Below, piece by piece: positions 25,298 to 62,059 of a stretch of 64,000 bases of DNA. The notes under the pieces are model-generated. The model did not search any database. It was not told the DNA's origin and saw only the letters and a list, made by a program, of their open reading frames with translations. Source of the DNA: Polaribacter porphyrae (GTDB lineage: Bacteria > Bacteroidota > Bacteroidia > Flavobacteriales > Flavobacteriaceae); NCBI RefSeq assembly GCF_002954685.1, contig NZ_MSCN01000001.1, positions 2,843,554-2,907,553 on the forward strand. The letters run 5' to 3'. How positions within the stretch are numbered: the stretch's first letter is position 1; each line of letters starts with the position of its first letter. Both the position numbers and the translations under genes were made by a program.

Positions 25298-26584
25298 TTA
25301 AAATTGATATCTAATGCCAGTATAAACGCCAATATTATAAGGAGCAAAACCATTAGAATTAGCATCAAATGTGTTTAACTGTACTTTAAGCATAGGGTTT
25401 AAATGTAAAGACCAGTTTTGATTAAATAGGTAATTGAAATCTAAACCTAAATTACCACTAAAATTAATAGTATTAAGATTGTTAGATTCCCCTTTTCTAT
25501 TAAGGCTTTGAGAAGTAAGATTTATATCATTTGCATTCAAAAAAAGTGAGCTAAAACCAGTTACTAAATGAGAAGAAAATCTTTTTTTATTAAAAAAATT
25601 ATATTTTACTTCAAGAGGAATCTCTATATAACCAAAATTTTGAGTTAAAGTACTTCCAGAGCCAATAGCATTACTTATAGAGTTTGAATCTAGGCTTAAG
25701 TTTTGTATAAAGGTCTCATCAAAAGAAGTAGAGTTTCCATCTGTAAAATTAACAGTACTTGATGAGTTTCGATTTGATATAAATACAGCTACACCATTAT
25801 TTGAGTACCTCATCTCTTGTAAATGTACTCCAGATTGAATCGTCCATTTTTCATTAATTTGATACGCTATTTGAACACCATAAGAATAACTGTTTTCTCC
25901 TTTTGTAGAATTTGCTAAATTGGTGTCAATAGGAGAAGATTCTGTAAAAGAATTAGACTGTAATACTGCAAAAACAGGTGCAATTGACCAATTTTTATTA
26001 TTTTTTGGTTTACTATCTTCCTTTTTTTCAATAACTGAATTAAAATCAATATTATTATTATCGGTTTTTTGAGCTAATAATTTAGGAAACAATAGTAATT
26101 CATCACTTTTTAATGATTTAGCATGTATTTGAAAATCAATTTGATTTAGCATTATATAGTTAGCATAATTTTTTTTAGAAAAATTAATACTATTTTGCTC
26201 TTTAACAATTGGTAAATTTTCTTTCTCTACACTATTTTCCTCTTTTTTTGAAATAAGGATATTATTTTTTTCTTTTCGTTGAGAATTAATATGCTCGTTT
26301 TTACCATCAATCAAATTATTATTAATCTTTTCTTTTTCAGGTGTTTTTGTTATGATAAGTTCATTGGTGTTTTTATTTGTAATAACCTCACTATCACTAG
26401 AAGGAAAAAATAATAAACTAAGAATCAAGATAGCAGCAACTGAACCCGAAAACCACCAAAAAGGGAAAACTTTACGTTTCTTCTTTTTTAGGTTTCCTTC
26501 GATATTGTTCCATACTTTCTCATTTGGAGTAACCTCCAAATTATTGAGTTGTTGAAATAATTTATCTATTTTTTTACTATCCAT
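25298..26584 (-). CDS. inner-membrane-anchored protein with C-terminal outer-membrane beta-barrel domain
   Basis: 428 residues. A cytoplasmic N-terminus of about 40 residues resembles a short anti-sigma segment (KIDKLFQQLNNLEVTPNEKVWNN read in two parts). One transmembrane helix follows (about 42-60, FPFWWFSGSVAAILILSLLFF region). A long Asn/Lys/Glu-rich linker runs to about 195. The rest (205-428) has alternating strands and ends in YTGIRYQF with terminal Phe, as in PorT-like beta-barrels. The layout would span both membranes. Its ATG overlaps the sigma-factor stop by 1 nt (TAATG), arguing for direct control of that factor. Confidence 0.8.
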   Translation of the reverse strand: MDSKKIDKLFQQLNNLEVTPNEKVWNNIEGNLKKKKRKVFPFWWFSGSVAAILILSLLFFPSSDSEVITNKNTNELIITKTPEKEKINNNLIDGKNEHINSQRKEKNNILISKKEENSVEKENLPIVKEQNSINFSKKNYANYIMLNQIDFQIHAKSLKSDELLLFPKLLAQKTDNNNIDFNSVIEKKEDSKPKNNKNWSIAPVFAVLQSNSFTESSPIDTNLANSTKGENSYSYGVQIAYQINEKWTIQSGVHLQEMRYSNNGVAVFISNRNSSSTVNFTDGNSTSFDETFIQNLSLDSNSISNAIGSGSTLTQNFGYIEIPLEVKYNFFNKKRFSSHLVTGFSSLFLNANDINLTSQSLNRKGESNNLNTINFSGNLGLDFNYLFNQNWSLHLNPMLKVQLNTFDANSNGFAPYNIGVYTGIRYQF

Positions 26585-27129
26585 TAATTGCTATTTCTTT
26601 CTTTATAATTTTCTAATTTTTGTCTAACTATTTTTCTAGCTCTAGATAAGTTAGATTTTGATGTACCTTCAGAAATATTTAATAATTCAGCAATTTCTTT
26701 ATGAGAATACTCATCTAAAACATATAAGTTGAAAACCAAACGATATCTGTCAGGTAATTTTTGAATACACTCTAACAACACATCTATACTAAAAGAGAAA
26801 TCATCGATATTTATATCTTCATCTGCATTATTAGGAACCTCACCAACTAACTCTAAAGGCATTTTATTTCTATATTTTTGAATAGTAGTATGTATTGTTA
26901 TCCGCTTTAACCATCCTTCAAAAGAACCCTTGAATTTATATTGTTGAATTTTACTGAAAATTATTAAAAAACTATCTTGTAAATTATCTTCTGCATCTTG
27001 ATAATTTCTAGAATATTTTAAACAAACAGCAAAAAGCTTATCAGCAAAAAGTTGATAAACTTTAGATTGAGCTTCTAAATTTTGCTCACAACATTTTTGT
27101 ATAAGTTCTTTATGCTTGATGTTTTTAAT
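26584..27129 (-). CDS. RNA polymerase sigma-70 (ECF) factor, apparent ATT start
   Basis: 181 residues if it starts at ATT (27129-27127). The only in-frame ATG is at 26862, which would remove all of region 2; yet the frame upstream encodes it plainly (KLFAVCLKYSRNYQDAEDN, LQDSFLIIFSKIQQYKFKG, SFEGWLKRITIHTTIQKYR). Between the stop at 27132 and 26862 there is no ATG, GTG, TTG or CTG, leaving ATT (27129) or ATC (27120). Region 4 (LPDRYRLVFNLYVLDEYSHK, IAELLNISEGTSKSNLSRAR) is complete. The ATT overlaps the stop of the preceding lipoprotein gene by 1 nt. Probably an envelope-stress type factor, linked to the barrel protein downstream. Confidence 0.9.
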   Translation of the reverse strand: MKNIKHKELIQKCCEQNLEAQSKVYQLFADKLFAVCLKYSRNYQDAEDNLQDSFLIIFSKIQQYKFKGSFEGWLKRITIHTTIQKYRNKMPLELVGEVPNNADEDINIDDFSFSIDVLLECIQKLPDRYRLVFNLYVLDEYSHKEIAELLNISEGTSKSNLSRARKIVRQKLENYKERNSN

Positions 27130-27529
27130 TTACTGGCACTACAACTTCTTCAAAAATATTTTCTCCATTACTATCTGTTCCTTTCCAAAATTTAAACAGA
27201 TAATCTTGTCTTTGAATTGGAGTAACTATTAAGTCAAATATACCTTCAGTAACCACATCTGTACAAGTCTCATCTAACATAACAAATGCTCTAACAGCAA
27301 CTATTCTTGCAGTATCTTGATATTGGTAATAAATATTATCAAAAGAATAGCAACCATTTGTTAATGAGTACTTTACCTTAATGGTATCTTGCTGTCCAAA
27401 AGTAAAAGAAGTAGGCACTATATAGTCGTCTACGGTTAAAAGTTCGTATCTGAAGTTAGGTTGATCATTATCTACTGAACATGCATAAAATAAGAGTAAA
27501 CCAAAAATAAATAATAATACTTTTTTCAT
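27125..27529 (-). CDS. small lipoprotein of unknown function
   Basis: 134 residues. Leader MKKVLLFIFGLLLFYAC with lipobox (Cys17) followed by SVDND. The mature part is beta-rich: YELLTVDDYIVPTSFTFGQQ, IKVKYSLTNGCYSF and a C-terminal EEVVVPVN. Two internal Cys (NGCYSF, DETCTD) may form a disulfide. No family recognised. It is the last of five lipoprotein genes ahead of the sigma factor, and its stop overlaps the ATT start of the sigma gene, so translation is probably coupled. Confidence 0.8.
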   Translation of the reverse strand: MKKVLLFIFGLLLFYACSVDNDQPNFRYELLTVDDYIVPTSFTFGQQDTIKVKYSLTNGCYSFDNIYYQYQDTARIVAVRAFVMLDETCTDVVTEGIFDLIVTPIQRQDYLFKFWKGTDSNGENIFEEVVVPVN

Positions 27530-59749: not shown

Positions 59750-61400
59750 AATCAATTAACAGCACTTAATGTTGATAAAAACACTGCATTAACAACTTTA
59801 GTTTGTGAACAAAACTCGATTACCAATTTAGATTTATCCAAAAATGAAGTATTATCTAGAATAGTATGTAATGATAATGCTTTAATTGTATTAGATGTTA
59901 AAAATGGAAACAATATCAATATCCGAAATTCAGATTTTTCAGCATTTGCAAATCCAAATTTAACTTGTATTCAAGTTGATAACGAAACGTATAGTAATAA
60001 TAATTGGGGACAAAGAGACATGCAATCTGAATTTAAAACAAGTTGTCCTGATTTAGTGGTTATTCCTGATGCCAATTTCGAAGCTCATTTAGAGTCTTTA
60101 AATCTAGGAAATGGAATAGTTGGAGATACTTATGTAGATCGAAAATTACTAGAAGTGGCAACTTCATTAAATATTGATTCAAAAAACATAACAAATACTT
60201 CTGGTTTAGAGTATTTTACAAGTTTAACTTTTTTAAGTATTACAGACAATGGATTAAGTGATATTGATCTGAGTAAAAATGAGTTATTAGAAACTTTAAT
60301 TGTAGATTTTAATCAATTTACAACTATAAACCTTTCAAAAAACACAAAACTTAAAACCTTTGAAGCTAGAAATAACAAGCTAGCAAGTTTGGATATAAGT
60401 TTACTTGTAGATTTAGAAAGATTGGAATTAGAAGACAATCAATTAACAGAATTGAATACTAATTCAAATACAAAATTAGCAGTAATAGATGTAAAAGATA
60501 ACCAAATAAAAGAATTGGATTTTAGCAATCAACCCCAATTATTAATTTTTGAAGGAAATAATAACGCTCTACAATCATTAGATATTAAAAACACTGCAAA
60601 CCCAATAATATCAACATTAAATACAACGAACAATCCTAATTTAACGTGTATAGAAGTATTGAATGTAGCTTACTTTACATCCAAATCATTTTCTATAGAT
60701 GCTCAAACCAATTTTTATGTTGATTGTCCAGAAACTACAGCAATTCCAGATGCCAATTTCGAGGCGTATTTAGAGTCTATAAATCTTGGAAATGGAGTTG
60801 CAGATGATGGTTTGGTATTAACAAACAAAATAGAAACGCTTACAGAACTAAATATAGAATCTAAAAACATAGCTGATATTACAGGAATTCAAGATTTTGC
60901 AGCACTAGTAGAACTGAATGCAAAAAATAATACAATCTCACAAATAGATTTAAGTAAGAATACAGATTTAGAAATTTTGTTTATCGCAAATAATCAACTA
61001 TCAAATCTAAATTTAGGAAATAATTTAAAATTGAAAAATATAGATGCAGGAGAAAATAATTTGAGCTTCATTAATGTAAGTGAGTTAAAAGATTTAGAAA
61101 CATTATCTCTCTATAAAAATCAGTTGACTGATATCAATTTACAATCGAATAAAAAATTACAAGCATTTATTGCCAATGATAATCAATTGAAATATTTAGA
61201 TGTCAGAGAAAATACTGCGCTTTTTTGGTTTGATGCTGATGATAATTTATTGGAAGATTTAATGCTAAAAAATGGAAATAACACCAAAATTACTCAATTT
61301 AGTATAGCAGGAAATCCAAATTTAGAATGTGTAGAAGTTGATGATGTAAACTTTAGTAATACCAATTGGACACAAAAGGATGCATCAGCTATATATAATT
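59123..61400 (+). repeat. three tandem IPDANFE-LRR modules
   Basis: Modules begin at about 59123 (IPDANFEQHL), 60062 (IPDANFEAHL) and 60743 (IPDANFEAYL). Each has a short helix-forming start, then LNIxSKNI...G and six to nine internalin-like repeats with the N-x-L pattern, and ends with NPNLTCIQV-like capping. Module 2 and 3 are most alike (LESLNLGNG / LESINLGNG). The TGA lies in module 1. Confidence 0.75.
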
Positions 61401-62059
61401 TAGATTGTGCTCCTGCAAATGATGATTGTGCTAAAGCAATTCCTTTAATTTATAACCAACCCACTTCAGGAGATGTAAATAGTGGATCTGCAAACAATAC
61501 ACCATTTTGTGCAGTAGGTAATGTAATTGCAGATGTTTGGTATACAGTTGTTGTACCAGAAACAGGCGAGTTTAGTATAGAAGGTACAACTCCAATTGGC
61601 AATTTAAAATTTGCAGTCTATTCATCTTGTCAAGCAAATGCTCCACTAACTTGTGGTAGCAGTATTTCTTTAAAGAACCTTTTAGTAGGCGAAACATTTT
61701 ATCTTAAAATTTGGGTAGAAGAGGCATCAGGAAAGAGCACACAAAATCTAAATTCAGGAATTTTTACAATAAAAGCAAGTGAAAGCAGTGTGTTATCTGT
61801 ACAAAATACAACTATTTTAGAACCAAAATTAAAACTTTTCCCCAACCCAACATCATCTCATGTAAACATTATTACCCTTAATAATGATGTAATAAATTCT
61901 GTAGAAGTTTATAATCTTTTAGGTAAAAAAGTATTATCAGAAAAAGTGAAAAATACCACAAAAACTACATTAAGCACTACTCAAATGTCACAAGGTATAT
62001 ATATCTTAAAAGTAAAAATTGAAGATAAAATTGTCTCAAAAAAATTGATTATCAAATAA
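60020..62059 (+). CDS. C-terminal part of the split LRR surface protein, with T9SS sorting domain
   Basis: 679 residues from the first ATG after the TGA; no promoter or signal peptide is visible, so it is probably not an independent gene. Contents: modules 2 and 3 of IPDANFE-LRR, a CAPANDDCAKAIPLIYNQP domain (about 470-590) often found before sorting domains, and the type A sorting domain LFPNPTSSHVNIIT...GIYILKVKIEDKI with a basic end KKLIIK. A strong terminator follows. Residues upstream of this ATG back to the TGA are equally repeat-like. Confidence 0.7.
   Translation: MQSEFKTSCPDLVVIPDANFEAHLESLNLGNGIVGDTYVDRKLLEVATSLNIDSKNITNTSGLEYFTSLTFLSITDNGLSDIDLSKNELLETLIVDFNQFTTINLSKNTKLKTFEARNNKLASLDISLLVDLERLELEDNQLTELNTNSNTKLAVIDVKDNQIKELDFSNQPQLLIFEGNNNALQSLDIKNTANPIISTLNTTNNPNLTCIEVLNVAYFTSKSFSIDAQTNFYVDCPETTAIPDANFEAYLESINLGNGVADDGLVLTNKIETLTELNIESKNIADITGIQDFAALVELNAKNNTISQIDLSKNTDLEILFIANNQLSNLNLGNNLKLKNIDAGENNLSFINVSELKDLETLSLYKNQLTDINLQSNKKLQAFIANDNQLKYLDVRENTALFWFDADDNLLEDLMLKNGNNTKITQFSIAGNPNLECVEVDDVNFSNTNWTQKDASAIYNLDCAPANDDCAKAIPLIYNQPTSGDVNSGSANNTPFCAVGNVIADVWYTVVVPETGEFSIEGTTPIGNLKFAVYSSCQANAPLTCGSSISLKNLLVGETFYLKIWVEEASGKSTQNLNSGIFTIKASESSVLSVQNTTILEPKLKLFPNPTSSHVNIITLNNDVINSVEVYNLLGKKVLSEKVKNTTKTTLSTTQMSQGIYILKVKIEDKIVSKKLIIK

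Follow-up and report, generated by a model that had tools for sequence, protein, structure and literature searches.

Initiation factor IF3 is encoded by infC and penalizes translation from AUH-type start codons, where AUH stands for AUC, AUU, or AUA. Closest to the gene reported here is sigR of Streptomyces, which, according to the account of Feeney et al. 2017 (PMC5472188), starts with GTC and is repressed by IF3; of 34 species, 32 have GTC and two have GTT, and when sigR is given a canonical start the sigma factor outnumbers its anti-sigma. According to a 2026 Staphylococcus aureus paper (PMC13009471), AUU and AUA starts yield ∼10% of the output of AUG in poor medium, and in rich medium ccpN reaches as much as 30%; extended Shine-Dalgarno (SD) motifs are described there at infC, cvfC1, and ccpN. 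As tabulated by Belinky et al. (PMC5622118), a single switch to AUU occurred among 61,358 ancestral AUG starts and a single one among 5,080 GUG starts, and in bacteria start switches to AUG outnumber switches from AUG. We found no report of a Bacteroidota sigma factor with such a start in the open-licence PMC literature; of two Flavobacterium johnsoniae papers, PMC6847099 contains neither "AUU" nor "non-AUG", and PMC8710568 contains none of "AUA", "non-AUG", and "infC". Here, we describe an extracytoplasmic function (ECF) sigma factor gene of Polaribacter porphyrae, the conserved start of which we judge from alignment to be the ATC at 27120, three codons downstream of the ATT at 27129 that had been chosen in the original prediction.

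An intact ECF sigma factor in a frame without canonical start codons

The window, i.e., the whole stretch of 64,000 nucleotides that was analyzed, contains on its minus strand a frame that opens after a TAA at 27132-27130 and closes at a stop at 26586-26584; counted from the ATC, the sigma gene (26584-27120) is 178 codons long. No ATG, GTG, TTG, or CTG occurs in this frame between the TAA and the ATG at 26862-26860, which was stated in the original prediction and is confirmed from the letters. That ATG, the first in frame, is codon 87 counted from 27120, and just three codons, ATT AAA AAC, separate 27120 from the in-frame stop upstream. As a window control, all open frames of ≥100 codons (n = 62) were checked for ATG, GTG, or TTG in the first 28 codons; 59 of the 62 have one, and the sigma gene is one of the three exceptions, together with a frame running off the window end and the frame at 59750-62056. 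The latter (plus strand) is leucine-rich-repeat-like by eye, lies directly after an in-frame TGA, has no canonical start before codon 91, and looks like an interrupted gene.

The sigma gene codes for an intact, normal full-length ECF sigma factor, since regions 2 and 4 lie within one short protein by Pfam, TIGR02937, and fold. In the long form, Sigma70_r2 (PF04542, about 27057-26863 on the minus strand, residues 25–89 of the 181-residue frame) and Sigma70_r4_2 (PF08281) are both above cut-off, and the NCBIfam model TIGR02937 exceeds its cut-off as well; the protein is not a member of NF058625 (GFO_1088/PG0214 sigma family), for which it scores 83.4 bits against a 130-bit threshold. The AlphaFold2 model has a mean pLDDT of 84 and its first helix begins at residue 3. 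The closest solved relative, both by sequence and by fold, is SigW (5wuq), the top Foldseek match (E 3.1e-08, TM-score 0.58, only 30% identity); it aligns from residue 3, and in the family profile query residue 3, counting from 27120, pairs with SigW residue 5. Please note that in many of the Foldseek matches the two sigma domains pack differently. The in-frame ATG at 26862-26860 was rejected as a start: Pfam finds region 4 only in the short form, in agreement with the earlier claim that region 2 (26863-27057) would be removed, and the aligned column is ATG in just two of the 52 genus orthologues described below.

Conservation of the AUH codon in the genus

The genus sample comprised 97 genomes, own genome included. 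Close orthologues (E 5.2e-59 or better) are present in 52 of them, and the codons were read in all 52; a match at this level is absent from the other 45 genomes, some of which are incomplete. The orthologous proteins are 55–76% identical. The column of 27120 (proposed start codon ATC, 27118-27120, minus strand) reads ATC in 35, ATT in 13, and ATA in three, and it is never ATG, GTG, or TTG; whether relatives would use ATG at the start position was the check put forward with the original prediction, and an AUH codon stands there in 51 of the 52. The single exception, L052, has no codon at the start column and a TTG two codons further on. One orthologue counted among the ATC genes, L034 (with L064, G027), is interrupted by an in-frame TAA at codon 8, and its open frame extends unusually far at the C-terminal end; it probably represents either a pseudogene or a faulty assembly.

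The column of the ATT at 27129 (27127-27129, minus strand) behaves differently from that of the ATC: it is ATT in 31 of the 52 orthologues and ACT in L026, the next two codons are free to vary among relatives, and it is missing in L028/L041, where the stop is followed only by CAC ATT (TAG CAC ATT) before the aligned Leu region begins. We therefore place the start at 27120, and translation probably begins at AUC 27120-27118. CTN as well as TTA codons are used for Leu at codons 3 and 6, thus the residues after the proposed start are translated. A start at the ATA of codon 7, considered for its invariance, was rejected because codons 3–6 behave as coding and are aligned with the residues that follow the TTG, GTG, or ATG (xUG) starts elsewhere.

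Among 56 distinct AUH genes, 55 have no ATG, GTG, or TTG from the upstream in-frame stop to the AUH codon, a result that argues against the base error that had been named as a possible refutation; CTG is found in this interval in none of the 56, and the interval has a median of three and at most 14 codons. The exception, L057 = L129, has an ATG six codons upstream of its retained AUH codon. In L235, which belongs to another family, ATC is kept and an ATG lies twelve codons upstream; the upstream ATGs of both genes recall the longer SigR isoform described for Streptomyces (PMC5472188).

Other genera and the direction of change

Two wider samples were drawn, i.e., the best 80 of 490 named contig matches and the best 30 loci of a family search, which at E 1e-40 found matches in 128 of 149 genomes; the two samples share a few genomes with each other or with the genus set. 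Across the resulting 110 best-scoring loci, the start column is TTG in 58, GTG in 27, ATG in 13, ATC in 10, and ATT in two, so that 98 of the 110 are xUG. The named AUH rows come from Polaribacter, Tenacibaculum, and Flavobacteriaceae without a genus, and the xUG rows from Winogradskyella, Flavobacterium, Aquimarina, and others. Some xUG genes have an extra canonical codon a few codons upstream, e.g., ATG at −3 in L078, L087, and L100, and their starts may therefore lie slightly farther upstream than aligned. In the three genus paralogues (L060–L062), the corresponding codon is, by eye, TTG.

A tree of 153 distinct proteins was built by a quick method with the first 12 residues left out. All 56 AUH rows together with L052 form one clade in it (SH-aLRT 98), and the AUH/xUG label changes twice, compared with a mean of 45.6 when labels are shuffled; within the AUH clade there were at least 11 changes among ATC, ATT, and ATA. 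The G frequency at four-fold sites is 10.3%, so about 12 neutral draws would be without G with a chance near 0.27. The missing ATG in the AUH clade, taken alone, is thus weak evidence, expected about one time in four under neutrality.

Neighboring genes and initiation context

The upstream gene (27125-27529, minus strand; from the ORF list) is small and lipoprotein-like by eye, has no Pfam or NCBIfam match, and ends 4 nt before the ATC. The distance from the upstream ORF end to the AUH codon is 4 nt at 30 and 1 nt at seven of 62 AUH loci, which include some genes fetched twice. Many of the remaining 25 loci have different upstream genes at 21–28 nt or farther with the AUH codon still present, so this codon is independent of the upstream neighbor. 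Downstream, the ATG of the partner gene (25298-26584, minus strand) overlaps the sigma stop (TAATG). Its product combines a short N-terminus with a single hydrophobic segment (by eye) and an outer-membrane beta-barrel domain, PF13568 (1.1e-07), the sole Pfam match; NCBIfam gave none. A similar downstream ORF, by eye, is found at 59 of the 62 AUH loci and begins −14 to +5 nt from the sigma stop. The partner is a candidate anti-sigma.

Bacteroidota generally have no Shine-Dalgarno sites. SD-like strings occur at three of the 62 AUH loci, and the strong or extended SD of the Streptomyces and Staphylococcus examples was not found at these loci. Among the 56 distinct AUH genes, 34 have A at −3 and 36 have it at −6, positions at which A is described as aiding initiation in F. 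johnsoniae (PMC6847099).

The infC gene of the same lineage

The resemblance to AUU-started infC that had been drawn originally extends to this genome, whose own infC reads ATA GCA ATT AGA AGA at the N-terminus, without ATG, GTG, or TTG. We examined 60 infC loci (L175–L234), i.e., 30 of the 53 genus matches and 30 family matches. A reading anchored on inner residues covered 59 of the 60, all except L210, and the N-terminus is ATA-Ala-(Ile/Leu/Phe) in 58 of the 60 loci; the remaining locus read, L216, has ATA GCC ATC ATA. A second reading, which sought Ile-Ala and cannot by itself detect ATG, gave ATA in 58. SD-like strings upstream of infC were found at none of 58 loci, and L181 has an additional in-frame ATG 14 codons upstream. 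Like other bacteria, the Flavobacteriaceae lineage therefore appears to start the gene of IF3 itself with an AUH codon, a type of start that the sigma gene seemingly shares.

A constrained CTC ATA element and a possible start hairpin

Besides the start codon, codons 6–7 (27100-27105, minus strand), which are CTT ATA here and CTC ATA in most relatives, show the strongest silent-site constraint. Over 179 columns of the 52 genus genes, third-base constraint has a mean of 0.25 bits (sd 0.24), and the three top columns are codon 6 (CTC, 1.64 bits), codon 7 (ATA, 1.38 bits), and the start codon (1.33 bits), followed by 0.90 bits for the next. Codon 7 is ATA in all 62 AUH loci, with no tree change in its third base versus 2–20 for the other third bases of codons 2–60. 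Codon-pair bias was rejected as the cause, as only one of the 174 Leu-Ile pairs found in open frames of the window is written CTC ATA; an antisense ORF over the motif was rejected as well, with no coding pattern in the codon tables (by eye only).

In the xUG groups, a stem could form between CUCAU and the first two codons of the gene (xUGAGUU/AACUCAU). The stem probability is 0.63 for TTG (n = 52), 0.91 for GTG (n = 27), and 0.58 for ATG (n = 13), versus 0.03–0.07 in synonymous randomizations, and it is 0.00 in the AUH clade (n = 51), which lacks the start hairpin. Total pairing of the start codon in the TTG group is barely above random (0.69 versus 0.61). Covariation was not found for the xUG hairpin (84.5% of cells paired versus 84.6% in shuffles; slid versions 32–45%), so the whole case for this hairpin is folding against synonymous randomization. 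No consistent cis pairing partner for CUCAUA was found in the AUH clade. A paralogous TTG-started sigma lineage is found in nine of 58 genus genomes; CTCATA or ATCATA lies at the same distance in five of these nine loci; the reading of the other four did not extend to this stretch. It is a tentative and rather doubtful thought that ECF sigma genes of Flavobacteriaceae might have an SD-free control element made of a weak start, 12 nt, and NUCAUA. In most genera NUCAUA would close a hairpin on the xUG start, and in the Polaribacter/Tenacibaculum-type clade the hairpin would have been swapped for AUH, turning a structure-gated start into an IF3-gated one, with a second start-selection role for NUCAUA and with the sigma factor reading out IF3/30S status.

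Proposed mechanism and alternatives

Our preferred explanation, to which we give a probability of about 0.7 as a whole, is that the full-length sigma factor is initiated at AUC 27120-27118 and that its weak, IF3-dependent output holds it below its partner. What we regard as established from sequence comparison is the position and conservation of the codon, the intact protein, the single clade, and the ATA-started infC in the lineage; low output and IF3 dependence of sigma translation are what the analogy would predict. An ancestral UUG, GUG, or AUG would have turned into AUH once, after which the clade wandered among AUC, AUU, and AUA. fMet would be placed at the AUC to start sigma translation; IF3 would destabilize 30S complexes on such a codon, and we propose that low sigma output dependent on IF3 and 30S status follows from this. 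The sigma factor would then stay below the separately ATG-started downstream partner, and leaky activation of the regulon would be prevented. We count against this explanation the canonical alternatives in three lineages (L052, L057 = L129, and L235), the lack of SD support for the AUH starts, unlike in Streptomyces and Staphylococcus, and the 45 of 97 genus genomes without a close match. Of the original interpretation, a full-length product from a start other than ATG, GTG, or TTG, with weak starts kept by relatives, stands, and the choice of ATT 27129 does not; the observation itself is confirmed and generalized, the start is moved by three codons, and the IF3 interpretation is plausible, with a strong precedent.

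The alternative that survives best, although we consider it unlikely, is that the AUH start is real and non-adaptive, i.e., that it drifted and was tolerated at low sigma need, without IF3 regulation. The three lineages with canonical alternatives, the genomes without a close match, and a missing ATG that is by itself within neutral expectation all fit drift, whereas the retention of AUH in a single clade whose start codon changed at least 11 times, the fact that no silent sites in the gene are under stronger constraint than those of codons 1, 6, and 7, and the prevalence of bacterial switches to AUG over switches away from it reported in PMC5622118 speak against it. Translation from ATT 27129, which shares one base with the TAA of the upstream gene, is improbable: this is the first codon past the in-frame stop and ATT is the majority state of its column, but TAAATT encodes the Val-Asn-stop ending of the upstream gene, so that the overlap, taken as meaningful in the original prediction, is incidental, other genera begin three codons later, and the column lapses in L026 and L028/L041 as described above. 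Still less credible is production of the sigma factor by frameshift from the upstream gene or by stop-coupled reinitiation after it, with no true AUH initiation. The 4-nt and 1-nt spacings at 37 of the 62 loci would suit such a route, but an ATG, GTG, or TTG in a frame open across the start exists at only four of 52 loci (L046, L051, L052, and L059), and the same AUH codon is found with different, more distant upstream genes; coupled reinitiation at AUH as an aid to initiation is possible. A sequencing error, a pseudogene (as L034/L064 with its early TAA may be), or a product from ATG 26862 is excluded by the orthologues, to the extent that sequence permits, given the common AUH state, the protein identities, and the short form without region 2.

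Returning to initiation at AUC 27120-27118, gene finders limited to ATG, GTG, and TTG would miss or shorten this sigma regulator across the whole clade. If the explanation is true, the gene would be a second, independent sigma factor under IF3, now in an SD-poor phylum, and it would let the choice of weak starts in such a phylum be tested directly.

Comparison with known systems

Like the IF3-regulated genes of the infC and sigR kind, the sigma gene has no ATG, GTG, or TTG able to start its full product and keeps a non-canonical codon in its relatives. As described for Streptomyces sigR (PMC5472188), it is a sigma factor gene with a co-encoded overlapping partner gene, its start outside ATG, GTG, and TTG is kept across a genus, and its own genome's infC is also non-canonical. 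It differs from the published account of sigR (PMC5472188) in the codon, AUH here versus GTC, in the extensive AGGAGGTG site of sigR, which has no counterpart here, and in that sigR has proven IF3 repression and a proven anti-sigma partner, whereas here we infer both. Since Streptomyces belongs to a different phylum, the weak start of the sigma gene would have a separate origin.

The infC genes that start with ATT in Escherichia coli, ATC in Streptomyces (PMC5472188), and AUA in S. aureus (PMC13009471) have AUH codons like the sigma gene. AUH-started infC is subject to IF3 discrimination, and infC of Flavobacteriaceae has ATA; unlike the sigma gene, infC is the gene of IF3 itself, with feedback. 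In S. aureus, the extended SD motifs reported for cvfC1, ccpN, and infC (PMC13009471) contrast with the scarcity of SD-like strings at the AUH loci here. Non-canonical starts that lower output, partly on regulators, are described for S. aureus cvfC1 (AUU) and ccpN and citZ (AUA) in PMC13009471, where E. coli pcnB is also cited as having an AUU start with lowered output, and the sigma gene, with its putative AUC start, would be used in a similar way.
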